Source: Pelosinus propionicus DSM 13327
GTDB lineage: Bacteria; Bacillota; Negativicutes; DSM-13327
NCBI RefSeq assembly: GCF_900114615.1
Contig: NZ_FOTS01000015.1
Span: 1-64,000 of the forward strand
Length of the DNA: 64,000 nt
Direction of reading: 5' to 3'
Part shown: in pieces, positions 1,262-63,912 of the stretch
How positions within the stretch are numbered: the stretch's first letter is position 1
How the letters are laid out: each line of letters opens with the position of its first letter
Notes under the pieces: model-generated
Databases searched by the model: none
What the model was told of the DNA's origin: nothing
The model's input: only the letters and a program-made list of their open reading frames with translations
Position numbers and translations under genes: made by a program

Positions 1262-1308
1262 AAATAAGGAAAGACTTCAGTTTTACTTAAGTCCTTCCTT
1301 ATTTTTTA
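1262..1308 (+). terminator. Rho-independent terminator
   Basis: AATAAGGAAAGACTT pairs with AAGTCCTTCCTTATT (one G-T pair) and is followed by a T run. It starts just after the stop of the zinc-ribbon gene. Confidence 0.88.
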
Positions 1309-1391
1309 TAAATAGATTTGCTAAAAGTTTAATTCGATTGGAGTATACAATAGAATTGACTAAAAAGTATTCATAAAAAAAGTCGTAGCTG

Positions 1392-1400
1392 TGGTACAAT
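1392..1400 (+). promoter_or_regulatory. Putative extended -10 promoter for the fol genes
   Basis: TGGTACAAT is an extended -10 element (TGn before TACAAT) 34 bases upstream of folP. No good -35 is seen at the right distance; TTGACT at 1356 is too far away. This fits an extended -10 promoter but is only moderately supported. Confidence 0.35.
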
Positions 1401-1433
1401 AAAGGATATGTTGGGATGCAGAAGGAGGAGAAA

Positions 1434-2636
1434 ATGACTTTTCATGTACGTGCATTAGGAATAGATAATCTAAAGCAAGCTCAAGTGGAATTAGCTAAGA
1501 TAAATTGTGATAAAACTAAAATTCCGGCTATGGATGATAAAGTTGTATTTAGGGTAATAAAATTAGAAAACATTTCAACCCAAAATGCTAATTTTTTAAA
1601 ACAAGCATTTCTAGTTAATGGTGGAGAGGTCGTTGTAGGGAGAAGTACAATAGATTTTGGAACTGCCTACGCAGATGTTTTATTGTGTGCAACAAAAAAG
1701 CAATTTCAAAAGGCTATCTCTCAATTGAAAATAGAACCATGGGGATTATCTTCAATTGCAGAAGCTATTGAGAGAACTATAAATAATATTGAGAGTTTTC
1801 CTCAACGCTCATATAATTGGCAGCATCATTCTTTAAAGATTATGCCAAGGCATACTTTAATAATGGGGATTTTGAATGTTACACCAGACTCTTTCTCAGA
1901 TGGCGGTAAATATAACACTATTGATAAAGCGTTGTATCATGTTGAACAAATGATACAGTGTGGCGCCGATATTATTGATATTGGAGCTGAATCTACCAGA
2001 CCCTATTTGGGAGCAGAAAAAATATCAGCTGAAGAAGAAATGAATCGATTAGGTCCATTGTTAGAACGAGTCTTATCGATATCGACAGTGCCTGTTTCGG
2101 TGGATACATACAAATCCAGCGTTGCGCTGGAGGCCTTAAAATTGGGTGCTCATATGATCAATGATATATGGGGACTACAACAGGATCAAAAGATGGCTAG
2201 GGTAGTAGCCGAGTACAATGCACCTATTATTATCATGCATAATCAAGATACTACATATTATCAGCAGGATATTATGTCAGAAATATATAATTTTCTGCAA
2301 AAGAGTATTTCTATTGGCATTCAAGCAGGTATTGATCCTAATAACATTATTATTGATCCGGGTATTGGGTTTGGTAAAACGCCAGAACAAAATTTGATAG
2401 TGATGTCGCGTTTAGATGAGTTAAGATCATTAGGTTGCCCGATATTACTAGGTACTTCCAATAAAAGGTTTATTGGAGAAGTATTAGGCCTGTCAGTCGA
2501 AGAGCGGTCGGAGGGGACTGGTGCTACCGTGTCTATTGGAATAATGAAAGGTAGTAATATTGTCCGTGTACATAATGTGCAAGCAATGACTAGAATAGCA
2601 AGAATGACAGATGCAATGATGAGGAGTGATATATGA
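1434..2636 (+). CDS. folP: Dihydropteroate synthase with N-terminal extension
   Basis: Condenses 6-hydroxymethyl-dihydropterin pyrophosphate with p-aminobenzoate in folate synthesis. The catalytic TIM barrel starts near residue 143 with the signature GILNVTPDSFSDGG. Further family motifs follow: DIIDIGAESTRP, SVDTYKSSVA, MINDIWG and the late DPGIGFGKT. About 140 residues precede the barrel, making the protein 400 residues against about 270-280 for most FolP. ATG 1434 is preferred over ATG 1416 because AAGGAGG (1422-1428) lies between them. It overlaps folB by four bases and forms a folP-folB-folK operon. Confidence 0.95.
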   Translation: MTFHVRALGIDNLKQAQVELAKINCDKTKIPAMDDKVVFRVIKLENISTQNANFLKQAFLVNGGEVVVGRSTIDFGTAYADVLLCATKKQFQKAISQLKIEPWGLSSIAEAIERTINNIESFPQRSYNWQHHSLKIMPRHTLIMGILNVTPDSFSDGGKYNTIDKALYHVEQMIQCGADIIDIGAESTRPYLGAEKISAEEEMNRLGPLLERVLSISTVPVSVDTYKSSVALEALKLGAHMINDIWGLQQDQKMARVVAEYNAPIIIMHNQDTTYYQQDIMSEIYNFLQKSISIGIQAGIDPNNIIIDPGIGFGKTPEQNLIVMSRLDELRSLGCPILLGTSNKRFIGEVLGLSVEERSEGTGATVSIGIMKGSNIVRVHNVQAMTRIARMTDAMMRSDI

Positions 2637-2995
2637 TGAAGGATACAATATTATTAGAAAATATGGTGTTTTATGGGTTTCATGGTGTTTATGAATATGA
2701 ACGTGAACAAGGGCAACGTTTTTATGTGGATGCGCAAATACATGCAGATTTAAGTGAGGCTTCTAAAACGGATAACCTTACTGATACAATTGACTATACG
2801 ATGGTTTACTCCCAAATTAAAGACGTCATGGAGAATCAAAGATTCCAACTATTAGAAGCAGTTGGCGGACATATTGCAGAATTAATTTTGAAGACAAGCA
2901 TTGCTACGAGTGTTACTATAAGAATTCGTAAGCCTGCTGTACCTATCCCTGGACCTTTGAATTTTGTTCAGGTAGAAGTGAGCCGGAGTAAATAA
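2633..2995 (+). CDS. folB: Dihydroneopterin aldolase
   Basis: Converts 7,8-dihydroneopterin to 6-hydroxymethyl-dihydropterin plus glycolaldehyde, two steps before FolP. At 120 residues it has normal FolB length. The N-terminal segment with FYGFHGVYEYEREQGQRF and the later TIDYTMVY and LLEAVGGHIAE carry the usual conserved Tyr, Glu and Lys region. RIRKPAVPIPG near the C terminus is also typical. The start overlaps the folP stop as ATGATGA; either of two adjacent ATGs could be used. Translational coupling with folP is likely. Confidence 0.95.
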   Translation: MMKDTILLENMVFYGFHGVYEYEREQGQRFYVDAQIHADLSEASKTDNLTDTIDYTMVYSQIKDVMENQRFQLLEAVGGHIAELILKTSIATSVTIRIRKPAVPIPGPLNFVQVEVSRSK

Positions 2996-2998
2996 GTA

Positions 2999-3502
2999 AT
3001 GATTATACTTGGATTAGGTTCTAATATGGGAGACCGTGAAAGTAATATAAAGTCGGCGATTTGTGAATTAAATAAGCATAGTAAAATTGCTATTGATAAA
3101 ATATCATCCTTGTATGAAACAAAGCCTGTTGGTTTTGTGAATCAACCTAACTTTTTAAACTTAGTTATTAGTATAAATACTATGTTAAATCCTCATGAGT
3201 TATTATCAGAATGCCTACAGGCAGAATATCATTTAGGTAGAATCCGCAAGCAACGTTGGGGCCCTAGAAATATAGACATTGATATTCTTATTTTTCAGAG
3301 CTACATGATCCAGGATGAGGTGCTGCAATTGCCTCATCCTCGCTTACATGAGAGATCCTTTGTTCTTATACCGTTGCAAGAGATTGCTTATGATCTTCCT
3401 GTATATCAAGGGCTAACTTCTAAAGATCTATTGCAAAAAATGAATACTAATGATGAGGTTATGTTATATAAAAAAATGAATTTAGACTTTTTAGAACGAT
3501 AA
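2999..3502 (+). CDS. folK: 6-hydroxymethyl-dihydropterin pyrophosphokinase
   Basis: Transfers pyrophosphate from ATP to 6-hydroxymethyl-7,8-dihydropterin, giving the FolP substrate. The 167-residue protein begins with the family start LGLGSNMGDR and carries the signature RWGPRNIDIDIL, including the Asp pair that binds magnesium. PHPRLHERSFVLIPL is also typical. It lies three bases after folB, completing a folP-folB-folK operon. Order and spacing suggest one transcript. Confidence 0.95.
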   Translation: MIILGLGSNMGDRESNIKSAICELNKHSKIAIDKISSLYETKPVGFVNQPNFLNLVISINTMLNPHELLSECLQAEYHLGRIRKQRWGPRNIDIDILIFQSYMIQDEVLQLPHPRLHERSFVLIPLQEIAYDLPVYQGLTSKDLLQKMNTNDEVMLYKKMNLDFLER

Positions 3503-3521
3503 GATAGGAGGCTAACGAAAG

Positions 3522-4664
3522 TTGGCTAAATCATGCAAAGTGTTATTTATCAGTGCTCCAATCGGGGCAGGACATGTAAAAGCTGCTCAGTCAATTGCCG
3601 AAACAATGTGTCGAAGGCATGATCACGTTGAAACTAGGTTGGTAAATGTATTTGATTTTTTTAGTACATTTATTGGCAAAAATATTTTAACTATATATTT
3701 CAAGGTATTAGAATTGTTTCCTAAAATATATGGGATAGCCTATGGATGGGGAAATGAAAGTCCTGTTGCATTAATCGGTCGTCAAATTATTAGTCGTTAT
3801 TTAGCTAGAAGAATGGAACAATACATTTTAGGGTATAATCCAGATATTATTGTATGTACTCATGCTACTCCTGCTGGGATTATTTCTTCTTTATTAAAAG
3901 ATAAAAAACTTACAATTCCAGTAGTTAGCATAGTTACTGATTTTGTTGTACATCGTTTGTGGGTTTATCCGGAAATTCAACATTATGTTATTGCCAATGA
4001 AAGAATGGGAAATTTCTTATATAATCACGGAATTAATAGTAGCTGTGTAGAAGTTATGGGAATTCCTGTTGATGAAAAATTTTCCAGATTACCTGACAAA
4101 GAAAAAATAATGCAGAAATTAGAGTTGCGTAGTGAGATAAGAACAATTCTTATTATGGGTGGTGGAGCAGGACTTTTGCCTATGGATAAAATTGTTCAAT
4201 GCTGTGAAAATATTGGCATTCCGCTACAAGTTATTGTTGTTGCAGGGAAAAATAAAAAGATGTATCAAAAAGTAACAAAATTACAGTCTAAAGTGCGTAA
4301 TAAGGTACAAGTTTTAGGATATGTTGATTATGTTAATGAACTAATGGTAATTGCAGATCTAATTATTTCTAAACCTGGAGGAATAACTTGTGCAGAAACA
4401 TTATGCGCAGGTGTACCTATGCTGATTTATCGACCAATACCGGGACAAGAAGAAGCAAATACGAGCTACTTAATTGAGCAGAAGGTGGCTTTAAGAGCGG
4501 ATTCTTTATTAGATATACAATTCATCTTAGTAAAGCTGTTTGTTGAGCAACCAGACGAATTAATACGATTACGAAAAAATTCTTTAAGAATAGGACGACC
4601 TCATGCTACTGTAGCTATAGCAGATTATATTTATTCTCAAGCCGGCATAAGACACAATTGCTAA
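3522..4664 (+). CDS. MGDG-synthase/UgtP-type glycosyltransferase
   Basis: A 380-residue family-28 glycosyltransferase of the monogalactosyl-diacylglycerol synthase / processive diacylglycerol glucosyltransferase type. The N-terminal domain starts with SAPIGAGHVKAA, the acceptor-side GAGH loop of this family. The C-terminal domain has GGGAGL near residue 206 and the nucleotide-sugar site KPGGITCAETLCAGVPML near 286. It probably glycosylates a membrane lipid on the cytoplasmic face. The start is TTG 3522, ten bases after AGGAGG (3506-3511). The exact sugar and acceptor are not predictable from sequence. Confidence 0.88.
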   Translation: MAKSCKVLFISAPIGAGHVKAAQSIAETMCRRHDHVETRLVNVFDFFSTFIGKNILTIYFKVLELFPKIYGIAYGWGNESPVALIGRQIISRYLARRMEQYILGYNPDIIVCTHATPAGIISSLLKDKKLTIPVVSIVTDFVVHRLWVYPEIQHYVIANERMGNFLYNHGINSSCVEVMGIPVDEKFSRLPDKEKIMQKLELRSEIRTILIMGGGAGLLPMDKIVQCCENIGIPLQVIVVAGKNKKMYQKVTKLQSKVRNKVQVLGYVDYVNELMVIADLIISKPGGITCAETLCAGVPMLIYRPIPGQEEANTSYLIEQKVALRADSLLDIQFILVKLFVEQPDELIRLRKNSLRIGRPHATVAIADYIYSQAGIRHNC

Positions 4665-4699
4665 TGTTTACGTTAAGGTTTTTATAATTGACATTTTTG

Positions 4700-4729
4700 T
4701 TGGTGTGTATTGTGGAAGTGTGCTATAAT
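4700..4729 (+). promoter_or_regulatory. Putative sigma-A promoter for dprA-topA
   Basis: TTGGTG at 4700-4705 and TATAAT at 4724-4729 have an 18-bp spacer, with TGC just upstream of the -10 (extended -10). The likely start point is about 65 bases before dprA. Confidence 0.55.
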
Positions 4730-4800
4730 TACCATTATTTTATAATGATTTTCCTGAATAAATATATGATTATTTAAATGTAATCATGTTGGAGGGAAAA

Positions 4801-5889
4801 ATGGAGAAAATATACTTGGCAGCATTACAGATGGTCGCTGGGATTGGTAACATGCGTCTTAAAGGGTTGGTTTCTTTTTTTGGTAGCGCTCAGCAGGCGT
4901 GGCTGGCTAATAAGCGTGATTTATTTTTATGTGGATATTTAGATGAAACAATCTATAATAAATTACTCATACATCGGGAAAAAATAGATATATATACATT
5001 AGCACGTGATTGGGAGAGAAATGGGATTCGTATTTGTTCTCATAGCGATTCGGAATATCCTAAATTGCTTTTAAATACTTACAATGCCCCTCAAGTTTTG
5101 TTTTATCGTGGTACATTGCCAATTACTGATCATCTTATTGCAATTGTTGGGGCGAGGAAAGCCACTTCCTATGGGAAAAATGTTGCGCAGTTACTGGCAT
5201 CAGAGCTGAATGAAGCAGGAGTATGGGTAGTGAGTGGTGCTGCTCGGGGTATCGATACAGCTGCTCATCAGGGCGCATTAGTTAAAGATGGATATACAAT
5301 AGCAGTTCTTGGTTGTGGAGTGGATATTAACTATCCGCCTGAGAATGGTAAATTGATAAACCAAATAGCAGAGAGTGGTGCTGTAGTTTCTGAATATGCC
5401 CCTGGCACTATAGCACATCCTGGCCATTTTCCAGCGCGCAATCGAATTATTAACGGTTTGTCCCGTGGTGTGGTAGTGGTGGAAGCTGCAGAAAGAAGCG
5501 GAGCATTAATTACAGCTGATTTTGCTTTAGAAGAAGGACGCGATGTTTTTGCTGTGCCTGGCAGTATTTTTTCACAATCTAGCAAAGGAGCACACCGTCT
5601 TATCAAACAGGGGGCTAAACTTATTGATGGTGCTGCCGATATATTAGAAGAATATCATATTGCTGCTAGGGAAAAAAAGATCCAAAGAATCGACCTCACT
5701 AGCGAGGAAGCAATGGTTTATGATATTCTTACATATGACAATTCTTTAGGAATTGAAGACATCGTTATGAAAACAAAGCTAAGTACCGCTGTAATTGCAT
5801 ATATATTACTTCAGTTTGAATTACGTGGTTTAGTGACAGAGCATAGCGGTAAACGCTATTTGCGCTGCGCTAAGGAGGGAGTTAAGTGA
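4801..5889 (+). CDS. dprA: DNA-processing protein DprA (Smf)
   Basis: Single-stranded DNA-binding protein that loads RecA on incoming DNA during transformation; the family is also widespread in non-competent bacteria. The 362-residue protein has the DprA order: a short helical N-terminal domain, the Rossmann-like core (IAIVGARKATSYG near 118; VVSGAARGIDTAAHQGAL near 146; PARNRIINGLS near 210; VVVEAAERSGALITAD near 225) and a C-terminal winged-helix part (about 295-355). ATG 4801 follows GGAGGG. ATG 4786 is less likely because it lies upstream of that site. It overlaps topA by four bases. Confidence 0.95.
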   Translation: MEKIYLAALQMVAGIGNMRLKGLVSFFGSAQQAWLANKRDLFLCGYLDETIYNKLLIHREKIDIYTLARDWERNGIRICSHSDSEYPKLLLNTYNAPQVLFYRGTLPITDHLIAIVGARKATSYGKNVAQLLASELNEAGVWVVSGAARGIDTAAHQGALVKDGYTIAVLGCGVDINYPPENGKLINQIAESGAVVSEYAPGTIAHPGHFPARNRIINGLSRGVVVVEAAERSGALITADFALEEGRDVFAVPGSIFSQSSKGAHRLIKQGAKLIDGAADILEEYHIAAREKKIQRIDLTSEEAMVYDILTYDNSLGIEDIVMKTKLSTAVIAYILLQFELRGLVTEHSGKRYLRCAKEGVK

Positions 5890-8045
5890 GCAAAGCATTA
5901 GTTATAGTTGAATCTCCAGCAAAAGCAAAAACGATTGAAAAGTTTCTTGGAAAAAACTACACGGTGAAGGCTTCTATGGGGCATTTAAGGGATTTGCCTA
6001 AAAGCCAATTTGGTGTAGATGTAGAGAATAATTTTACGCCTAAATATATTAATATTCGAGGTAAAGGCGATCTTATAAAAAGTCTTAAAAATGCTGCTAA
6101 GGCAGCAGATACTGTTTATTTGGCATCTGATCCTGATCGGGAAGGAGAAGCTATTGCCTGGCATTTGTCACATATATTAAATATTCCACAAGATAAGGCC
6201 TGTCGAATTGAGTTTAATGAAATCACAAAGACTACAATTCAAAATGCTGTAAAAAAACCTCGGCCTATTAATATGGAGAGAGTTGATGCGCAGCAAGCTA
6301 GGCGGCTATTAGACCGAATTGTTGGCTATCAATTAAGCCCTCTGCTGTGGAGAAAGGTAAGAAAAGGCCTTAGCGCTGGACGAGTGCAGTCTGCAGCTGT
6401 GGGAATTATCTGTGATAGAGAAAAAGAAATCCAGGCTTTTGTCTCGGAAGAATATTGGACAGTGGTTGCAAAGTTGCGAGGAAAGCCCAAAACGGCATTA
6501 TTTGATGCCCAGCTTATTTTAATTGAAGATCATAAGGCTAAAATTGATAACGAAGAACAAGCTCAAAGTATACAAGAAGAGTTAGAAAAAGCTGAATTTA
6601 CGGTAACGGACGTGAAGCGGCGAGAAAGACGGAGAAATCCTGCTGCGCCTTTTATTACAAGCAGTTTACAGCAAGAGGCATCACGCAAATTAGGCTTTAC
6701 TTCTCGTAAAACAATGATGGTCGCTCAACAATTATATGAAGGGCTAGATCTTGGCAGCTCTGGTCCAGTTGGACTTATCACTTATATGCGTACTGATTCG
6801 GTGCGTTTAGCTGAGTCGGCGCAGCAAGAAGCCATTAAGTACATTGTAGCAACATATGGGGAGAACTACTTACCTGAAAAGATTCCAGTATATTCTTCAA
6901 AGAAATCTCAAGATGCACATGAAGCCATTCGTCCTACTAGTTTAGAATTCCCCCCAGAAAAGCTAATCAAATATCTTTCCCGAGATCAGTTGCGATTATA
7001 TACTTTAATTTGGGAACGATTCATTGCTAGTCAAATGGCACCTGCAATATATGATACGTTAACTGTAGATATTGCAGCAAGTCGCTTTTCTTTACGGGCA
7101 ACAGGCTCAACGGTCAAGTTTCCTGGTTTTATGGCTGTATATACAGAAAGCAAAGATGGTGAAGAAAAAGAGAAAGATATTACATTGCCTAACTTAACGA
7201 TTGGAGAAAAGTTAAAGGTTAATAAGATTATTCCGAAACAGCATTTTACAGAACCACCGCCTAGATATACAGATTCCAGCTTAATAAAGGTACTAGAAGA
7301 AAAAGGTATTGGTCGTCCAAGTACCTATTCACCGATTGTTGAAACCATATTAGCACGAGGTTATGTAATTAAAGTAGAAAAAAAATTTCAACCAACAGAA
7401 TTAGGCTTTGTTGTTTTGGATTTATTAAAACAATATTTTAAAGCAATTGTAGATGTTGAATTTACAGCTAAAATGGAAAATAGTCTTGACGAAATTGCTG
7501 ATGGCAAAGGTTCACGTATTGATTTATTACGAGAGTTTTATGCGTGGTTTGCTGTAGATTTAGAACAAGCAGAAAAAGAAATTGGTCATGTTGAACTTCC
7601 CGTGGAAGTGTCTGATGTACCATGTGAAAATTGTGGTAGATTCATGGTGGTAAAACATGGCCGTTATGGTGATTTCTTAGCTTGTCCTGGTTTTCCAGAG
7701 TGTCGTAATACTAAGCCTATTTTAAAAGAAACAGGAGTACAATGCCCTAAATGCGCTGGTAGTATTGTTGAGCGTCGAACAAAGCGCAGCAAAATCTTTT
7801 ATGGATGCAAGAATTATCCTACTTGTGACTTTATGACATGGGATATACCTTTAAAAGAAAATTGTCAGGCTTGTGGTGCCTTTATGTTGCGACATAATTT
7901 GAAAAATGGTAAATTTAATATAATGTGTAGCAATGAATCTTGCGAAACGCGTCAAAAAGATGAAAAAAAAGTAACTAATAGTACAAAAAAAAGTAAAATA
8001 ATTTCAAGAAAATTAAAAGGTACGACGCTAACGAAAAAGAATTAA
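5886..8045 (+). CDS. topA: DNA topoisomerase I
   Basis: Type IA topoisomerase that relaxes negative supercoils by single-strand passage. The protein is 719 residues. The Toprim domain is at the N terminus (LVIVESPAKAKTIEKFLG; SDPDREGEAIAWH gives the acidic DxDxE-type site). The catalytic tyrosine is Y300 in TYMRTDSVRL. The C terminus carries three four-cysteine zinc ribbons at about 578-700 (CENCGR..., CPKCAG..., CQACGA...), followed by a basic Lys-rich tail. The start GTG 5886 overlaps the dprA stop as GTGA, so the two are coupled. Confidence 0.98.
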   Translation: MSKALVIVESPAKAKTIEKFLGKNYTVKASMGHLRDLPKSQFGVDVENNFTPKYINIRGKGDLIKSLKNAAKAADTVYLASDPDREGEAIAWHLSHILNIPQDKACRIEFNEITKTTIQNAVKKPRPINMERVDAQQARRLLDRIVGYQLSPLLWRKVRKGLSAGRVQSAAVGIICDREKEIQAFVSEEYWTVVAKLRGKPKTALFDAQLILIEDHKAKIDNEEQAQSIQEELEKAEFTVTDVKRRERRRNPAAPFITSSLQQEASRKLGFTSRKTMMVAQQLYEGLDLGSSGPVGLITYMRTDSVRLAESAQQEAIKYIVATYGENYLPEKIPVYSSKKSQDAHEAIRPTSLEFPPEKLIKYLSRDQLRLYTLIWERFIASQMAPAIYDTLTVDIAASRFSLRATGSTVKFPGFMAVYTESKDGEEKEKDITLPNLTIGEKLKVNKIIPKQHFTEPPPRYTDSSLIKVLEEKGIGRPSTYSPIVETILARGYVIKVEKKFQPTELGFVVLDLLKQYFKAIVDVEFTAKMENSLDEIADGKGSRIDLLREFYAWFAVDLEQAEKEIGHVELPVEVSDVPCENCGRFMVVKHGRYGDFLACPGFPECRNTKPILKETGVQCPKCAGSIVERRTKRSKIFYGCKNYPTCDFMTWDIPLKENCQACGAFMLRHNLKNGKFNIMCSNESCETRQKDEKKVTNSTKKSKIISRKLKGTTLTKKN

Positions 8046-8075
8046 ATCATAAATGATATAATCGGAGGAACAACC

Positions 8076-9395
8076 GTGTCAAAAGTAACTATTATCGGAG
8101 CTGGCTTAGCTGGCAGTGAAGCAGCTTGGCAAGTTGCGGAAGCGGGATATGAGGTGGAACTGCATGAGATGAGACCCCATGTTATGCCGCCCGCTCATCA
8201 TACGGATCAATTTGCAGAGTTAGTATGCAGTAATTCATTACGAGGAGCTGCAATTGAAAATGCTGTTGGATTGCTAAAGGAAGAAATGCGAAAAATGAAT
8301 TCTTTAATCATGAAAGCAGCAGATACAAGTAAAGTACCAGCAGGTGGAGCCTTAGCTGTCGATCGTGATTCATTTAGTAAATATGTAACAGATGCTCTTC
8401 TAAATCATCCTAAAGTAACAGTTATAAGTGGTGAAGTGACTGATATCCCTCAGGAACAATTATTAATTATCGCCAGTGGGCCTTTAACATCTCCAACTTT
8501 ATCAGAAGCTATCGGAAAAATAACAGGTAATGAATATTTGTACTTTTACGATGCTGCGGCTCCTATTGTATTAGGTGATTCTCTTGATATGAGTAAAATA
8601 TATAGAGCCTCTCGTTATGGCAAGGGAGATGATGACTATTTAAATTGTCCCATGAATAAAGCTGAATATGAACTATTCTGGAAAGAATTAACTCATGCGG
8701 AAACTGCCCCTGTCAAAAATTTTGAAAAAGCAATCTTTTTTGAAGGATGTATGCCGGTAGAAGAAATGGCGAGTCGCGGTATTGATACATTGCGTTTTGG
8801 ACCACTGAAACCAGTTGGCTTAGAAAATCCAACTACAGGAGAAAGACCGTACGCAGTAATTCAGTTACGTCAGGACAATTTTGCTGGAACCTTGTATAAT
8901 ATTGTTGGGTTTCAAACACATTTGAAATGGCCTGAACAGGAGCGAGTTTTCCGATTGATACCTGGTTTACAAAAAGCAGATTTTGTGCGTCTAGGTGTCA
9001 TGCATCGTAATACATTTATTAATTCTCCTAAAATTCTATCTACTACGCTGCAAATGATTACAAATCCCAGTATATTCTTTGCAGGACAAATTACAGGCGT
9101 AGAAGGATATGTGGAGTCCGCTGCTTCCGGATTAGTAGCTGGACTTAATGCAAGTCGTATATTATCAGGACTTGAGCCAGTGGTATTTCCGAAGGAAACA
9201 GCCCATGGTGCTTTGTGTCATTACATTACGAATGCCGAAGCTAAGCATTTTCAGCCTATGAATATAAACTTTGGATTATTGCCACCTTGGGTGGAAAAAA
9301 TTCGAGATAAAAAAATCAAAAATCATTTAATTGCTCAACGGTCATTAAATGCTATTGATAAATTTAAAGAAGAATTATACAATAATCTTGCATAA
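8076..9395 (+). CDS. trmFO: FAD/folate-dependent tRNA m5U54 methyltransferase TrmFO
   Basis: Methylates U54 of tRNA using methylene-tetrahydrofolate and FAD. The 439-residue protein starts with the FAD-binding dinucleotide fold [14 protein letters not shown]. The two family cysteines are C51 in LVCSNSLRG and C225 in [10 protein letters not shown]. The C-terminal FAD-contact region includes [17 protein letters not shown]. The start is GTG 8076 after CGGAGGA. It follows topA by 30 bases, the conserved Firmicute order topA-trmFO-xerC-hslV. Confidence 0.97.
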
Positions 9396-9519
9396 TTAAT
9401 GTTATTGTGCTAGTATGAATTAATAAATTTTCCTACATAGCTTGACAAATGAGAGGATCAGTCTTTGTAGTGTTTCGTATTTCGACATAATTTTAACGTA
9501 CATAATTGTTATTCTGACA

Positions 9520-9699
9520 ATGATGCTATTTATCCTATACTTAAAGATTGAAAAGAATGCCTCACAGCACTCTGTAATGAATTATTGGGCAGATATCGAG
9601 GGATTTGTCGAATTTGCTAATTTACAAGTGTTGAGGAGGTTCTTTTTAGTCATGTAGCGAATGTAAAAATTAAAGACGGTCTATCATAATGCATATGTG
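9520..9699 (+). pseudogene. xerC: xerC remnant (tyrosine recombinase, internally deleted)
   Basis: The locus between trmFO and hslV is where xerC (codV) sits in Bacillus. Here only scraps remain. The frame from ATG 9520 encodes FILYLKIEKNASQHSVMNYW and IEGFVEFA, which closely matches the start of the XerC core-binding domain (B. subtilis CodV has ...YLQIEKNYSQ...NY...IEEFETF). The frame then stops at 9657. In another frame, 9648-9677 reads SHVANVKIKD, followed after one more shift by YHNA (9682-9693), resembling the XerC C terminus THVSKE...HHPRA. The whole catalytic part (Arg, Lys, His and Tyr residues) is missing, so no active recombinase can be made. Confidence 0.72.
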
Positions 9700-9719
9700 A
9701 TGCATAGGAGGCGGTGTTT

Positions 9720-10250
9720 ATGTTTCACGCAACAACCATTGTTGCTGTAAAAAAGCAGGGGAAAACAGCAATTGCTGGTGACGGTCAAGTTACTTTTGGT
9801 GGTAATACGATAATGAAACATAATGCTAAGAAGGTTCGACGTTTATATCATGGTCAAGTGTTAGCTGGTTTTGCTGGATCTGTGGCTGATGCATTTACCT
9901 TATTTGGAAAATTTGAAGTAAAGTTGGAAGAATTCAATGGCAATTTATTACGAGCTGCTGTTGAATTAGCTAAAGAGTGGCGTGTAGACAGAGTATTACG
10001 CCGCTTGGAAGCATTACTTATTGTTACAGATGCAGATCATATGTTAATCATTTCAGGAAATGGTGAAGTAATTGAGCCGGATGATGATGTTATGTCTATT
10101 GGCTCAGGCGGTCCTTATGCCTTGGCTGCGGCTCGGGCCTTAGTAAAGCACTCTAATTTATCTGCTTCTGAAATTGCTCGAGAAGCGCTTCAAACTGCAG
10201 CAAGTATTTGTGTATATACAAATGGTAATATCACAGTTGAAGAGTTATAA
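9720..10250 (+). CDS. hslV: ATP-dependent protease HslUV, peptidase subunit
   Basis: Proteasome-like threonine peptidase of the HslUV (ClpQY) complex. The protein (176 residues) starts [12 protein letters not shown], so the predicted mature N terminus after removal of MFHA is a threonine, the usual nucleophile (B. subtilis ClpQ uses serine). Conserved stretches include [23 protein letters not shown] and [18 protein letters not shown] 9720 has AGGAGG at 9706-9711; GTG 9714 is too close. It precedes hslU by 14 bases. Confidence 0.96.
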
Positions 10251-57519: not shown

Positions 57520-58776
57520 TTGACAAAAATGGTTTTAGTTGGTTCGCCTAACGTTGGTAAAAGCGTAATATTTAATTACCTGACTGGTCAATATGTGGCA
57601 GTATCCAATTATCCAGGAACCACAGTTGATATATCTCGAGGGTATAGCAAAATTAATGGAAAATCATATGAAATTATTGATACTCCTGGTATGTACTCAC
57701 TTATCCCCCTTACAGAGGAAGAGCGAGTGTCACGAATGTTATTGTGTCAGGAGCAGCCGGATATTGTACTAAATGTAATTGATGCTAAAAATATTCGTAG
57801 AATGCTGCATCTTACGCTGCAGCTAATTGATATGAATTTCCCGGTCGTATTAGTTGTAAATTTGATAGATGAAGCAAAGAAAAATGGTATTTTTTTAAGG
57901 CTAGAGTGTTTATCTGACATATTGGGAATTCCAGTTATTGCTACCATTGCCACAAAAGGTCTTGGTCTCGAAAAGATTAAAGAAGAAGTTCAGGAATATT
58001 CCTTTATAAAACCTCGTTTTTCTTTACTATATTCTCCTGATATAGAACAAGCCATTCATTTTATCAGTGAAAAAATAAACGAAGATTATGGTTTATCGCC
58101 CCGCATGGCAGCTTTTTTGCTTATACAAGGTGATAAACGACTGTGTGCATTGGCAAGCCGGAAGGAACATGCATTTTCTAAAATTTTAGCAAAAGTAAAT
58201 GAACTTAAATCTAGTTATCAAAATGATATGGAATACATTATGGCTGTAGAACGGCAGCGGGCGATTGATCATATTTGTGACTCCGTTCTGGAAGAAAGAA
58301 ATCTACATTCGGGAGGAATGGGTGAAACTTTAAGTCGCTTAACTAGGGAACCAATAACTGGAATACCTATTTTATGTTTAGTAATATTTTTTGGAATCTA
58401 TCAATTTGTAGGTAAATTTGGAGCAGGGTTTTTAGTTGAGTATTTAGATATTAATTTCTTTCTTCCTTATGCGAACCCTTTAATCGGATACTATGTGTAT
58501 CAACATATACCCTGGGATTGGTTGCAATCATTGATAATGGGCAAATATGGAGTTTTCACTTTAGGGTTTCGTTATGCATTTATTATTATTTTACCAATCG
58601 TTAGCACTTTTTTCTTTATGTTTGCGATTTTAGAAGATAGTGGATATTTACCTCGATTAGCCATGTTAATGGATTGTATATTTAAAAGAATTGGACTAAA
58701 TGGTAGAGCTGTTATTCCTTTTGCTTTGGGATTAGGGTGTGGCACAATGGCAGTTATGGTGAGAAGTAAAAGATAA
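57520..58776 (+). CDS. feoB: FeoB ferrous iron transporter, 5' part (interrupted by element)
   Basis: The N-terminal two thirds of FeoB. It has the G domain (G1 GSPNVGKSVIFN, G3 DTPGMYS, G4 NLID), the helical region and three membrane segments. Genuine FeoB sequence ends at codon 413 in GLGCGTMAVM; five codons read into the mobile element then end at TAA. Joined with the 3' part at 61744, the frame is continuous and gives 644 residues, a normal FeoB. The truncated product lacks the second half of the pore and is unlikely to transport. TTG 57520 follows GGGGGACGG. Confidence 0.93.
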   Translation: MTKMVLVGSPNVGKSVIFNYLTGQYVAVSNYPGTTVDISRGYSKINGKSYEIIDTPGMYSLIPLTEEERVSRMLLCQEQPDIVLNVIDAKNIRRMLHLTLQLIDMNFPVVLVVNLIDEAKKNGIFLRLECLSDILGIPVIATIATKGLGLEKIKEEVQEYSFIKPRFSLLYSPDIEQAIHFISEKINEDYGLSPRMAAFLLIQGDKRLCALASRKEHAFSKILAKVNELKSSYQNDMEYIMAVERQRAIDHICDSVLEERNLHSGGMGETLSRLTREPITGIPILCLVIFFGIYQFVGKFGAGFLVEYLDINFFLPYANPLIGYYVYQHIPWDWLQSLIMGKYGVFTLGFRYAFIIILPIVSTFFFMFAILEDSGYLPRLAMLMDCIFKRIGLNGRAVIPFALGLGCGTMAVMVRSKR

Positions 58777-58779
58777 AAC
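58740..58779 (+). other. attL, left junction of the feoB element
   Basis: FeoB sequence up to 58760 changes to element sequence after TGGT (58757-58760). The element-side half (58761-58779) is an imperfect inverted repeat of the element-side half at the other end, with GT (58759-58760) in the centre. Confidence 0.75.
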
Positions 58780-58791
58780 GTCTATAGAAGT

Positions 58792-60237
58792 TTATATTTT
58801 AATGCTGATCTTCATTGGTATCATGCGATGATCAATGTAGAATTTCCAACCCAGCTTTTCAATAATAGTTCGCCGTTCAATAAAAGACCTTGCGGCAAAA
58901 AAAGCTTCAAGATCTATTTGTGTAGTAGGATTAGAAGAGAGTTTGGTAAGAGAATCGGATATTCTTTGAAGATCTTCTTTTAAACGATTAAGCTCTTTTT
59001 CTGCATCCTTAGAAGTTAGCATTCCTTCATTAAACCACCGAAGGATTGTTGTCCGCTTCTTTTTTAATTCACTTTGATGATTTTGAATAACTTTTATTTT
59101 ATCAGTCTTAGACGTAGCTTCATTTGGAAAGGAAATTAAACATTGTTGTTTATTATTCTTTATAATTGCACAGAGATGTTTCCATACGATTTCATCGATC
59201 TCAAGTGATGAGATCGATGGGTTGCCACATGGGGCTAGCGATAGATCACTACCTCCTGAGTTACATTTATACCAAGTATATTCTTTACCTGAAGAATGTT
59301 TCTTAGAATGAGCTGACAAGCTATAACCGCAGACTGAACATTTAAGGAAGTTGCGCAGTAGATATTCATGTTTTGTGTTACGAGGGCTTTTACGTTTGTT
59401 TTCAGTTAAGATTTGTCTTACTTTTTGAAATTGATCAATTGTTACAATCGGAGAAATAGGGATTGGAATCCAATCTTCTTTTGGTCGCGCTATCCTTTTA
59501 CGTTTATATTGACTGATCTTTTTTTCATATTTATTAAAAGACCATTTAGTGCCAGCATATTTTTCATCTGTTAAGATTCGATAAATCATTGATAGAGTAA
59601 AGGGTTTACCCTGCTGGTTCGTAATATTTTGTTGACGAAGAAAAATCGCGATTTCTTTAATTGTAACTTTTTTACTAAGATACAATTCATAAATCATATG
59701 TACGACTGCAGCTTCAGTTTGGTTGATACTATACGTACTATTTACATCATCCCAGTCGTAACCATAGGCGCGAGTTTTCTGGATCATCTTACCACTTCGT
59801 GCTTTGGCACGTTTACCACGTAGAGTACGTTCACGAATTTTAGCTTTTTCAAAAGCACTGATCGCACCACGGATCGAAAAGAATAAGCGTCCTTCTGGTG
59901 AAGCATCGTAGCTGCCAGTTACAAAATATAGTTTTGTATTCAATTTTTCAATTTCATCAGCCAATAGTAATTGATTTGTTAGGTTGCGGCTAAGGCGATC
60001 GGGATCATAAACAATGACATTCGTAATTTTTTTATTATGCAGATCATCTCTTAAACGGTCAAGGGCGGGCCTTTCTAAATACTCACCGCTATAGCCATCA
60101 TCAATATATTCTGAGCAGCTTGAGGTTTCCAAGCCTAGTTTGGCAGCATGCTCATGGCAAGTGCGAATTTGGTCACTAATTGAATAACCTATTTCCGCTT
60201 GAAGCTCTGTGCTTACACGGCAGTAAATCGCATTCAT
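58792..60237 (-). CDS. Large serine recombinase (site-specific integrase)
   Basis: A 481-residue serine recombinase that should catalyse integration and excision of this element. The resolvase domain (about 1-145) has the catalytic serine S9 in IYCRVSTELQ and the VYDPDRLSRNL helix region. It is followed by the Recombinase domain (about 165-280, AYGYDWDDV...EKYAGT), a zinc ribbon with CSVCG (about 312) and later paired cysteines, and a coiled-coil (about 385-440). ATG 60237 has GGGAGG upstream. Its stop is 31 bases from the left junction. Confidence 0.96.
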   Translation of the reverse strand: MNAIYCRVSTELQAEIGYSISDQIRTCHEHAAKLGLETSSCSEYIDDGYSGEYLERPALDRLRDDLHNKKITNVIVYDPDRLSRNLTNQLLLADEIEKLNTKLYFVTGSYDASPEGRLFFSIRGAISAFEKAKIRERTLRGKRAKARSGKMIQKTRAYGYDWDDVNSTYSINQTEAAVVHMIYELYLSKKVTIKEIAIFLRQQNITNQQGKPFTLSMIYRILTDEKYAGTKWSFNKYEKKISQYKRKRIARPKEDWIPIPISPIVTIDQFQKVRQILTENKRKSPRNTKHEYLLRNFLKCSVCGYSLSAHSKKHSSGKEYTWYKCNSGGSDLSLAPCGNPSISSLEIDEIVWKHLCAIIKNNKQQCLISFPNEATSKTDKIKVIQNHQSELKKKRTTILRWFNEGMLTSKDAEKELNRLKEDLQRISDSLTKLSSNPTTQIDLEAFFAARSFIERRTIIEKLGWKFYIDHRMIPMKISIKI

Positions 60238-60387
60238 TGCAGCCTCCCGAAGAAAAAAATTTATAAAAATATCTTATGAGGTTAAAGGAATTTGTATTTT
60301 TTTGTAGGGCATAAAAGGAAATCATAAATTAAAATAGAAAATAATTAATAGTGATATCGTTAAGTAAAGCATTATTCTTGCATAAAG

Positions 60388-60416
60388 TTGATAGTTATTA
60401 CTCTATAAGTTATATT
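60388..60416 (+). promoter_or_regulatory. Putative sigma-A promoter of the YitT-family gene
   Basis: TTGATA (60388-60393), 17-bp spacer, TATATT (60411-60416), in the 220-base gap between the divergent recombinase and YitT-family genes. Confidence 0.5.
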
Positions 60417-60457
60417 TTTGTGGGAATAAGAAAATATACATATGGGAGGAGCGTTTT

Positions 60458-61318
60458 ATGTTAAAAAAAAGAAAATTATTAATAGACAAACTTAAGAAGT
60501 ATATCATGCTTTTTATCGGATCTATCTTTACCGCTGTAGGACTAGAAGAATTCTTGGTTCCCAATCAAATCATTGATGGTGGTATTGTTGGCATATCAAT
60601 TATGGCAAGTCATTTAACTTCGATGCCTTTAAGTGTATTTTTAGTACTGCTAAACTTACCTTTTATATATTTAGGCTATACACAAATTGGAAAGACATTT
60701 GCTATATCAACTATTTTTTCCATATTTTCTTTGGCCTATTGGGTTTCCATTTTTCATCCTATATCAGAAGTTACAAGAGATCCATTTTTATCAGCTGTTT
60801 TTGGTGGAATTATTATTGGAATTGGCGTTGGCTTAATCATTCGATATGGTGGATCTTTAGATGGTACTGAAATTGTTGCTATTATTTTAGATAAGAAGAC
60901 CGGGTTTTCTATAGGTGAAATCGTCATGTTTTTTAATATTTTTATTTTAGCTAGTGCAGGGTTTATTTTTAGCTGGGATAAAGCAATGTACTCTTTGGTG
61001 GCCTATTTCATTGCTTTTAAGGTTATAGACATAACCATTGAAGGATTAGATGAGTCAAAAGGTATCCTGATTGTTTCGGATAATCCAGATGAAATAGCTG
61101 ACGCGCTAATGGCTCGTTTAGGGAGGGGCGTGACCATTCTTCATGGTGAAGGCGGATATTCAGGTGATTATAAAAAAATTCTTTACTCTGTTCTTACTCG
61201 GCTTGAAATTGCTAAGCTTAAAGCGATTGTAAAGGAAAAGGACGAAAATGCTTTCATTACAATAACAGATGTACATGATGCGATGGGCGGTAGAGTAAAG
61301 AAAAAAGCAATACATTAG
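60458..61318 (+). CDS. YitT-family membrane protein (cargo of the element)
   Basis: A 286-residue member of the YitT family (DUF161 membrane part plus C-terminal DUF2179 domain). There are five to six membrane segments up to about residue 195, with EEFLVPNQIIDGGIVGISIM and RYGGSLDGTEIVAIILDKKT being typical. The cytoplasmic DUF2179 part is GVTILHGEGGYSGDYKKILY and ITITDVHDAMGGRVKKKA. The substrate is not known. ATG 60458 follows GGGAGGAG. It lies wholly between the element junctions. Confidence 0.92.
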   Translation: MLKKRKLLIDKLKKYIMLFIGSIFTAVGLEEFLVPNQIIDGGIVGISIMASHLTSMPLSVFLVLLNLPFIYLGYTQIGKTFAISTIFSIFSLAYWVSIFHPISEVTRDPFLSAVFGGIIIGIGVGLIIRYGGSLDGTEIVAIILDKKTGFSIGEIVMFFNIFILASAGFIFSWDKAMYSLVAYFIAFKVIDITIEGLDESKGILIVSDNPDEIADALMARLGRGVTILHGEGGYSGDYKKILYSVLTRLEIAKLKAIVKEKDENAFITITDVHDAMGGRVKKKAIH

Positions 61319-61375
61319 TAAGAATTTTATTGTCACAACAAATATATATTAGATTGTGTGATTAAATATACTTGT

Positions 61376-61447
61376 AAGACTTATGTTGAAAAGGAAGAGA
61401 CAGCTACAAGAACTGTCTCTTCCTTTTCAACATAAGTCTTAATTTTT
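61376..61447 (+). terminator. 28-bp perfect hairpin terminator after YitT gene
   Basis: The arms 61376-61403 and 61413-61440 are exact reverse complements (28 bp) around the 9-base loop CTACAAGAA. They are followed by AATTTTTTAG. This is much longer than the other terminators in the window. Confidence 0.88.
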
Positions 61448-61519
61448 TAGACTACATTTATAATGTTTTCACAAATTATTAATATTAGACAAGGAGAGAG
61501 CATATACCCTAGGGGGGGA

Positions 61520-61651
61520 ATGAAAATGGAGGTTGTTTTTGAATATGAATTCGATGGTATTGAGTATCCGGAAGATAATCCACCACCAAAGCTCATTAAT
61601 GATTTACTAGATGTTTTAGAGCCTTTTCTGCAACTGAATCAAGCCGAGTAA
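61520..61651 (+). CDS. 43-residue acidic peptide in the feoB element
   Basis: Begins at ATG 61520 just after a run of seven Gs (AGGGGGGGAA) that serves as ribosome site. The product is acidic (FEYEFDGIEYPEDNPPPKLI, then DLLDVLEPFLQL) and looks soluble. I do not recognise a family. It lies between the long hairpin and the right junction. Recombination directionality factors of serine integrases are often small and encoded near an att site; that role here is only a hypothesis. Confidence 0.55.
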   Translation: MKMEVVFEYEFDGIEYPEDNPPPKLINDLLDVLEPFLQLNQAE

Positions 61652-61689
61652 TATCGGCTGATATGTTATAAATGGACAAGTAGTAGGTA

Positions 61690-62439
61690 GTGGAGAGTAA
61701 AGGTTTCGTTATGATATTAAATATATTTTGTATGTTACGTGTGGTAACGCGAACATTGGAAACACGCCGCGAAAGAATATTAGCTACGTTCTTATTGTCT
61801 TTGACCATACCTTGTTCGGCACAGCTTGGTGTTATCTTGGCGTTATTGTCGGATTCATTTTTATCTCTAACGATATGGGGCTGTTATATCCTTCTCATTT
61901 TTGGAATCATTGGAAGGTTGTCAGGAAGTTTTCTTCCTGGCAACTCTAGTTCATTTTATATGGAAATACCACCTTTGCGCCTGCCAATTTTATCAAATGT
62001 ATTACAGAAGGCTTTTATTCGGATGTGGTGGTATTTTATAGAAATCCTGCCGATTTTTATAATGACGAGTGTTATTTTGTGGCTTGGTGATCGAACTGGT
62101 ATTTTAAGTGATATTATATATTCTCTACAACCGACCATGAGTCTGCTGGGTTTGCCAATAGAAACAGCCCAGCCATTTCTGTTAGGCTTCTTTCGTAGAG
62201 ATTATGGTGCTGCTGGATTGTATGAAATGGCTGCAAATCAAAGTTTAAGTAAAGAGCAACTTTTAATTGCAAGTGCAACACTGACCTTATTTGTACCATG
62301 TGTTGCACAAGTAGCCGTAATGATAAAAGAACGAGGGATATTCATCTCAATGGTAATATTATGTAGTATAATTGTCTTTGCTTTTGTGGGAGGTTTATTG
62401 CTTTCGAAATTATTGCCTATTCTTAATTTGTATCTATAG
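61690..62439 (+). CDS. feoB: FeoB ferrous iron transporter, 3' part
   Basis: The C-terminal part of FeoB. FeoB sequence begins at codon GTA 61744 with TRTLETRRERILATFLLSLT, then the second pore half with five membrane segments (for example IPCSAQLGVILALL, FLLGFFRRDYGAAGLYEMAA and FVPCVAQVAVMIKERG). The first 18 codons come from the element. GTG 61690 could start a separate product, but no strong ribosome site is seen. In the excised form it is in frame with the 5' part. feoA follows. Confidence 0.92.
   Translation: MESKGFVMILNIFCMLRVVTRTLETRRERILATFLLSLTIPCSAQLGVILALLSDSFLSLTIWGCYILLIFGIIGRLSGSFLPGNSSSFYMEIPPLRLPILSNVLQKAFIRMWWYFIEILPIFIMTSVILWLGDRTGILSDIIYSLQPTMSLLGLPIETAQPFLLGFFRRDYGAAGLYEMAANQSLSKEQLLIASATLTLFVPCVAQVAVMIKERGIFISMVILCSIIVFAFVGGLLLSKLLPILNLYL
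61725..61764 (+). other. attR, right junction of the feoB element
   Basis: Element sequence up to TGGT (61742-61745) changes to FeoB coding sequence from 61746. The element half 61725-61743 matches the reverse complement of 58761-58779 at 12 of 19 positions around a central GT. Confidence 0.75.
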
Positions 62440-62474
62440 AAATATTCATGAATGTCATAAAGGGAGTGAAAAGT

Positions 62475-62702
62475 ATGGCTCACCTGATGCCAATTGTTAG
62501 ATGCAAAAAGAATACGACTGTACATGTTGTACGTCTATTATTAACAAGTGGAGAGAATCTGCGCAAACTAACAGCTTTTGGGTTGTTGCCTGGGGTAAAA
62601 ATAGAAATTTTGCAAACATATCCTGTCTATGTATTAAAAATAGGATACACACAAATTGCTTTAGATTATGAAATAGCAAAAAATATTATTGTTGTCCTAT
62701 AA
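62475..62702 (+). CDS. feoA: FeoA-domain protein
   Basis: A 75-residue SH3-like FeoA domain protein that supports FeoB in ferrous iron uptake. The typical parts are NLRKLTAFGLLPGVKIEILQ and IALDYEIAKNIIV at the C-terminal end. ATG 62475 follows AGGGAGTG. It lies 35 bases after feoB; when feoB is interrupted, its expression may depend on promoters inside the element. Confidence 0.92.
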   Translation: MAHLMPIVRCKKNTTVHVVRLLLTSGENLRKLTAFGLLPGVKIEILQTYPVYVLKIGYTQIALDYEIAKNIIVVL

Positions 62703-63875: not shown

Positions 63876-63912
63876 GACAAAAGACTTTTATGATGGGTCT
63901 TTTGTCTTTTAT
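63876..63912 (+). terminator. Rho-independent terminator
   Basis: GACAAAAGAC / GTCTTTTGTC with an 11-base loop, followed by TTTTATTTTT. It closes the deacetylase gene. The remaining bases to 64000 hold no gene I can support. Confidence 0.88.

Follow-up and report, generated by a model that had tools for sequence, protein, structure and literature searches.

The window examined here, a stretch of 64,000 nucleotides from Pelosinus propionicus DSM 13327 (contig NZ_FOTS01000015.1), carries a gene for the iron transporter FeoB that is interrupted after 412 codons by an element of 2985 base pairs (bp) encoding a large serine recombinase. The locus was compared across eight Pelosinus genomes, G000 (the source of the window) to G007, seven of which carry the element, and the counts in the following list refer to this genus sample.

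57520-58756, plus strand: N-terminal half of feoB, 412 codons and the first base of codon 413, an open frame recognised by Pfam; 412 codons in all eight genomes
58757-61741, no strand: intervening element, 2985 bp; orthologous elements in six further Pelosinus genomes and an exact empty site in G001
58757-58760, plus strand: core of the left recombination site, TGGT; crossover dinucleotide probably GT
58792-60237, minus strand: large serine recombinase, 481 amino acids (Resolvase, Recombinase and Zn_ribbon_recom domains)
60458-61318, plus strand: cargo gene yitT (YitT_membrane and DUF2179), divergent from the recombinase gene; in all seven elements
61375-61441, no strand: perfect inverted repeat of 29 bp, terminator-like, 3' of yitT
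61480-61506, plus strand: sigma-E-like promoter, TAATATT-N14-CATATA, overlapping a SpoIIID-like box, AGACAA (61487); aligned in all seven elements, scored against background and found in a composite motif scan
61526-61651, plus strand: acidic open reading frame (ORF) of 41 amino acids, candidate recombination directionality factor (RDF); 41-45 amino acids, conserved in all seven elements
61673-61680, plus strand: second TGGACAAG motif, located past the small ORF and ahead of the right junction; 19-22 bases after the stop of the small ORF in all seven elements
61742-61745, plus strand: core of the right recombination site, a repeat of the left TGGT
61742-62439, plus strand: C-terminal half of feoB (Gate and FeoB_C), under purifying selection; the length from RTLE to the stop is 229 codons in all eight genomes
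62448-62702, plus strand: feoA-like gene (FeoA domain) downstream of feoB

The N-terminal half of feoB starts with TTG at 57520 and runs to the TGGT at 58757-58760, which recurs at 61742-61745; joining at this common TGGT yields a single frame of 644 codons plus a stop, and the unjoined left ORF continues for six further codons (MVRSKR) after residue 412, to a stop at 58776. Pfam assigns FeoB_N, FeoB_Cyto and positions 2-66 of the 104 of Gate to the left half, and Gate and FeoB_C to the right half, with the break falling inside the Gate domain; in the joined product, which is a member of the FeoB family with domains contributed by both halves, the FeoB_N GTPase, Gate and FeoB_C fall in one chain. 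A 4-bp repeat would by itself be weak evidence for a recombination core. In G004 and G006, the left and right junctions have just GT in common, and for this reason, the crossover dinucleotide is probably GT.

The first-pass annotation of this DNA had described a feoB split by a 2985-bp element, TGGT at both junctions with a joined frame of 644 codons, and an element-borne large serine recombinase; the interval from TGGT to TGGT is indeed 2985 bp, the recomputed join gives the same frame, and the recombinase has the full set of three domains. With respect to the content of the element, yitT and the conserved 41-amino-acid ORF are additions to that description. Compared with the models of the Ccr recombinases of SCCmec and of XisF of the fdxN element, the recombinase scores below every cut-off (CcrB, 138 bits of 900; CcrC, 107 of 900; CcrA, 61 of 700; XisF model of NCBIfam, 102 of 375).

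Two other FeoB homologs are encoded in G000 (C80:43800-45410 and C73:104135-105921), one a long chain and one with separate matches for the GTPase and the membrane part, so that growing cells have other possible importers of ferrous iron.

Distribution, inheritance and selection

In seven of the eight Pelosinus genomes, feoB is split at the identical codon by an orthologous element with the recombinase, yitT and the small ORF, and contigs whose recombinases are 84-87% identical to that of the window belong to Pelosinus. An uninterrupted allele, anticipated by the first-pass annotation, is present in G001, where feoB encodes 644 residues and reads directly across the site with nothing left over. 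Two other genomes of the family were available, G009, with an uninterrupted feoB, and G008, without a match at the threshold. The sample of the class consisted of 120 genomes at least 90% complete, drawn evenly from the larger group, with the top 10 candidates scored in each; 40 of these match feoB at an E-value of 1e-85 or better, including 35 outside Pelosinus, where the gene is uninterrupted in 32, split in one (G040) and, in G027 and G064, divided between two contigs, with one or more of the fragments reaching a contig end, so that the status cannot be judged. G040 belongs to another family, and its N half stops at the equivalent position, give or take a few codons, the break being placed to this precision and not to the base because both ends are alike around the site. 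This half is followed by a recombinase 60% identical to that of the window, in the same orientation, and by a weakly similar small ORF; the best match to yitT in the fetched G040 locus is at the chance level (E-value of 1.6). A search for the recombinase in 380 genomes of the class, with the top four candidates scored in each, yielded eight genomes at an E-value of 1e-150 or better, namely, the seven split Pelosinus and G040, with the recombinase located in feoB in all of them.

The synonymous distances (dS, Nei-Gojobori) of the two feoB halves, the recombinase and yitT climb in step, from 0.03-0.05 between G002 and G003 up to saturation; between G000 and G002, they are 0.41 for the N half, 0.52 for the C half, 0.57 for the recombinase and 0.42 for yitT, and there is scatter, as between G004 and G006 (0.10, 0.06, 0.20 and 0.12, respectively). 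In the feoB tree, G001 lies inside a group with support of 100/100 that also includes the split G000, G007, G002 and G003, and the split G005, G004 and G006 are outside; the forks inside this group are weaker (84/85, 88/93), and G040 and G009 have long branches. The main groups of the recombinase tree are the same, and the eight feoB recombinases form a clade (100/100), with those at locus C49 and beside sigK, discussed below, being nearest with moderate support (84/84). Between G001 and G002, the dS of the flanking gene trx (0.116) is similar to that of feoB (0.14 and 0.12). The simplest history is a single old insertion, with the element later lost exactly in G001.

Such inheritance bears on the possibility that this is a selfish mobile element with a strict attachment site in feoB that reinserts repeatedly and is excised without any role for the host. 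The presence of the element at the equivalent feoB position in G040, a member of another family, fits such behavior, as does the general preference of large serine recombinases for one site. However, the agreement of the recombinase and feoB distances within Pelosinus points to vertical descent, there is no transfer gene among the ORFs of the 2985-bp element, and for selection to act on the two halves of feoB, they must be rejoined again and again, which altogether makes a purely selfish element improbable.

The ratio of nonsynonymous to synonymous substitutions (omega, from the same distances) is 0.06-0.18 for the feoB halves, indicative of purifying selection, and 0.08-0.16 for the recombinase. 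The counts of 412 and 229 codons are constant in all eight genomes, and no stop has appeared in either half over saturated dS. Loss of feoB by plain insertion of a mobile element, followed by decay, would be tolerable given the other FeoB copies, but it is contradicted by these signs of selection (constant codon counts, no stops, omega of about 0.1) and by the shared site in seven of the eight genomes and in another family, and is barely credible. The first-pass annotation had left the choice between a switch and a loss of iron transport in this strain; programmed excision of the sigK/skin kind is the better reading, and a strain-level knockout is strongly disfavoured as an explanation of the split because the split is common to seven of the eight genus genomes and to G040, from a different family, and purifying selection acts on both halves. 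For yitT, omega is 0.00-0.05, and its role as a specially selected cargo was rejected because the chromosomal yitT paralog has a value just as low (0.02-0.05).

The conservation of both halves would also be accounted for if they were translated separately and worked together as a split FeoB, with the element as a fixed passenger. An in-frame start is found shortly upstream of the C half, at a varying position, in five of the eight split genomes, the genus has a TTG codon for the L of RTLE, and one of the other FeoB homologs is matched separately in its GTPase and membrane parts. In G004, G006 and G040, however, no ATG, GTG or TTG lies in the interval from the preceding stop to the right junction, the TTG is replaced by CTC in G040, the break is inside the Gate domain, and the recombinase and junctions, which a fixed passenger does not need, are conserved as well, so that two cooperating proteins are very improbable. 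With a C half lacking a start in three split genomes and the break inside Gate, the conserved function of both halves most likely requires joining of the DNA.

The small ORF, its leader and other split genes

The small ORF is a candidate RDF, predicted as such from its position, size and leader, with an isoelectric point (pI) of 4.05-4.19 in the four Pelosinus variants computed; poliovirus-like Pfam rows (E-values of 0.14 and 0.16) were discarded as chance matches. The second TGGACAA motif, near the right junction, is perhaps a binding site for this factor in excision; its counterpart in G040 is TGGACAAC, 18 bases after the stop of the small ORF.

The best-conserved blocks 5' of the small ORF over the seven elements are AATAT, GACAA and GCATATA, and GACAA is taken here to resemble a SpoIIID box (WWRRACARNY in Bacillus subtilis). 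When the 80 bases upstream are scored with the sigma-E consensus, 13 of 15 is reached in three genomes, a score attained by 0.5% of 3196 background 80-mers, and 12 of 15 in two (6.1% of the background); as a yardstick, the spoIVA leaders score 12-13 in four genomes and the spoIIIAA leaders just 9-11 in five, although a CATATC box is visible. The composite motif [AG]GACAA-N8-10-CATA[TA][AC] occurs twice in the window (0.45 expected), at the small-ORF leader and at 63887. It was further scanned in 16 loci, chosen from about 140 for genus recombinases, split genes or the G040 locus, with five matches, in the spoVK elements of G000, G001, G002 and G004 and in the feoB element of G040, each of which precedes the small ORF of an intervening element (three judged by the shared leader sequence). 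Thus, the leader of the small ORF is shared with the spoVK elements of the genus.

The spoIIID gene is present in all eight genomes, in seven of them over the cut-off, and in five spoIIID leaders inspected of eight loci, an inverted box, TTTTGTCC, adjoins GCATATA. Both spoIVA and spoIIIAA are found in seven genomes and missing from G003 (83% complete), so that, judging by its genes, the host makes spores.

In G000, the gene for a spoVK-like AAA ATPase is split by 4002 bp on the minus strand (4907-9853 of G000:C83:102000-120000), and the halves join in frame at a common GTA to give 314 residues. The gene is split in at least four of the eight genomes (G000, G001, G004 and G006, with both halves on the fetched stretch); the stretches fetched from G002 and G007 include the N half alone and that from G003 neither half, and G005 is outside this comparison. 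A recombinase of the spoVK type is encoded in seven of the eight genomes. Similarly, sigK is found in separate N and C pieces in seven genomes (on different contigs in G005), and only N-side pieces were seen in G007. A recombinase 23-26% identical to that of feoB adjoins the N half of sigK in G000, G001, G002 and G006, and closer relatives (40-48%) are encoded past the C half in G000, G001, G005 and G006, with none matched there in G002, G003 and G004. The match to the C half ends at residue 218-220 in G000, G001 and G006 versus 226 in G002, G003 and G004, and this earlier end hints that the 3' end of sigK holds a second element. At the sigK locus of G000 (C78) and of some relatives, the second, 3'-end recombinase apparently marks a second insertion, in the last codons of the gene.

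Control of a similar kind is described in several papers. In Clostridioides difficile, the skin RDF CD1234 is controlled by sigma-E and SpoIIID and the recombinase is constitutive; CD1234, like SprB, is an acidic protein (PMC5025042). Of the 17 SpoIIID-raised, sigma-E-controlled genes of B. subtilis, just two depend almost completely on SpoIIID, namely, spoVK and spoIVCA, the gene for the skin recombinase (PMC517825). The feoA-feoB genes of C. difficile (CD1518-CD1517) are entered in a mother-cell table, with a value of 0.05 and a sigma-K promoter (PMC3789822). Thus, a mother-cell FeoB has a precedent, and by analogy, the feoB product of Pelosinus may act in the mother cell.

Proposed programmed excision in the mother cell and known systems

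The preferred reading, with a probability of roughly two in three, is that this is a minimal, non-phage, skin-like element whose excision would restore FeoB in the sporulating mother cell. Its likeness to sporulation intervening elements is twofold: excision would restore the interrupted coding gene precisely and in frame, to judge by the joined frame and the empty site of G001, and the element encodes a large serine recombinase of its own, as shown by the domain set and the eight-member clade. Under this scenario, the small ORF, acting as a directionality factor and expressed in the mother cell from the sigma-E/SpoIIID-type promoter, would trigger the joining of attL and attR by the recombinase over the GT core; excision would leave the terminal mother cell with an unbroken feoB, and the forespore and all its descendants would retain the split allele. 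The mother cell would then rely on the rejoined FeoB, and growing cells on the other FeoB copies.

The excision might instead occur in growing cells, regulated by iron or stress or stochastic as in phase variation, with feoB switched on in a subpopulation and no link to sporulation. The sequence features that suggest programmed excision apply equally to this scenario, G001 is an example of a rejoined state that is inherited, the conserved feoB leader belongs to no recognised promoter class, and in Clostridium acetobutylicum, feoA and feoB go up with other iron genes as members of a transitional cluster (PMC2530871), a pattern that does not decide between the two. However, the leader of the candidate excision-factor gene is of the mother-cell type and is found again in the spoVK elements, and the element has been lost in only one of the eight species, although heritable excision should cost a lineage its element more often; growing-cell excision is accordingly unlikely, without being far-fetched. 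The switch of iron import by excision that the first-pass annotation offered is partly supported, with the cue being likelier sporulation than iron.

Several observations weigh against mother-cell excision, the preferred reading. With regard to the leader, the sigma-E score is 10 of 15 in G004 and G006, with the best match located elsewhere; the composite-motif match at 63887 is unrelated to the element; and the motif is absent from the scanned loci of sigK, C49 and the spoIIR side. No convincing mother-cell promoter was recognised ahead of feoB itself. The small ORF matches no Pfam or PHROG family, its counterpart in G040 is weakly similar (E-value of 0.00095), and neither this ORF (pI of 8.0) nor that of the spoVK element (pI of 10.2) is acidic. 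The G040 C half is open and on another contig, so that the extent of the element there cannot be read. G001 lives without the split, the joined feoB is not in the G000 assembly, and none of the retrieved loci contains the 40-mer of the circular junction, the whole genome not having been scanned for it. Finally, the recombinase on the N-half side of sigK, which is likelier to be the skin excisase, is distant from the feoB recombinase, and the closer relatives lie beyond the C half.

A broader proposal is that the small recombinase cassettes of Pelosinus constitute a system of developmental gene assembly, in which sigK, spoVK and feoB would be split in the germ line and joined solely in the mother cell, spoVK and feoB via small factors with a shared SpoIIID-type leader. 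Iron uptake would be one arm of this system, and a recombinase with a factor of about 45 amino acids would be enough. This generalization is tentative, and is slightly more apt to fail than to hold.

Among the known systems, the cyanobacterial fdxN element is excised in a terminal cell type, where the interrupted gene is thereby restored, and the recombinase studied here matches the model of its recombinase, XisF (102 bits), although well below the cut-off of 375 bits, and development differs. The skin element of sigK, in B. subtilis and in C. difficile (skinCd, with the recombinase CD1231 and the RDF CD1234), similarly splits a coding gene at one site and employs a large serine recombinase; the feoB element would add to this likeness a small candidate excision factor with a sigma-E-type and SpoIIID-like leader and presumed excision in the mother cell. 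Unlike skin, it targets an iron transporter and not a sporulation regulator, and whereas skinCd has 19 genes (PMC5025042), the feoB element has three within 2985 bp and no phage genes. SP-beta in spsM (SprA/SprB) also combines a large serine recombinase with a small RDF, of 58 amino acids, under a mother-cell promoter according to PMC4191935, the RDF here being a candidate; however, SP-beta is an active prophage, in contrast to a non-phage mini-element kept across a genus. The gin element in gerE of Bacillus cereus (GirC/GirX) is likewise non-phage, with a serine recombinase, an RDF and site-specific restoration of the gene, all of which are predicted here from sequence, but is reported to span 28.6 kilobases (kb) with three recombinases (PMC5595907). 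The yin element in yabG of Clostridium botulinum is another case in a spore former, with the recombinase beside the 5' part of the gene and a predicted small RDF, but is described as prophage-like, in a gene for a sporulation protease (PMC10747680).

In the parts of the literature examined, intervening elements of spore formers occupy sporulation genes, namely, sigK, spsM, gerE and yabG; the comK prophage, outside spore formers, is cited in PMC4191935. No description of an element that splits feoB was found in the open-access literature searched, with subscription papers mostly outside the search. The contrast is that here the split gene encodes a metal transporter, the element is only about 3 kb long, and the arrangement has persisted long enough for synonymous sites to become saturated. 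If the proposed reading is true, genome editing in a terminal cell acts on ordinary physiology, a need of the mother cell for ferrous iron is indicated, and a very small natural excision module becomes available; G001, with its intact feoB, is a natural control.

Several other loci include recombinases in suggestive positions. At G000:C49 (5236-7450), a stretch of about 2 kb includes a recombinase and an acidic ORF of 59 amino acids, with a leader that looks sigma-E-like by eye and then the same ATGGACAAGT motif. At G000:C57 (about 1290-4738), a comFC-like gene (named by eye) is truncated next to a prophage-like recombinase and repressor/protease-like ORFs, an arrangement that we take to be reminiscent of the comK phages. 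In G004 (C1:2581616-2630148), sigE-like and sigG-like genes (named by eye), adjacent in G000, are about 47 kb apart, with a recombinase adjoining sigE and a weak relative of the small ORF (E-value of 0.054) in the same stretch. At G000:C34 (8195-9679), a recombinase directly follows spoIIR, in the same place by coordinates in G001, G002, G006 and G007, and a sigma-K-like promoter and a short ORF are discernible by eye between the two genes.

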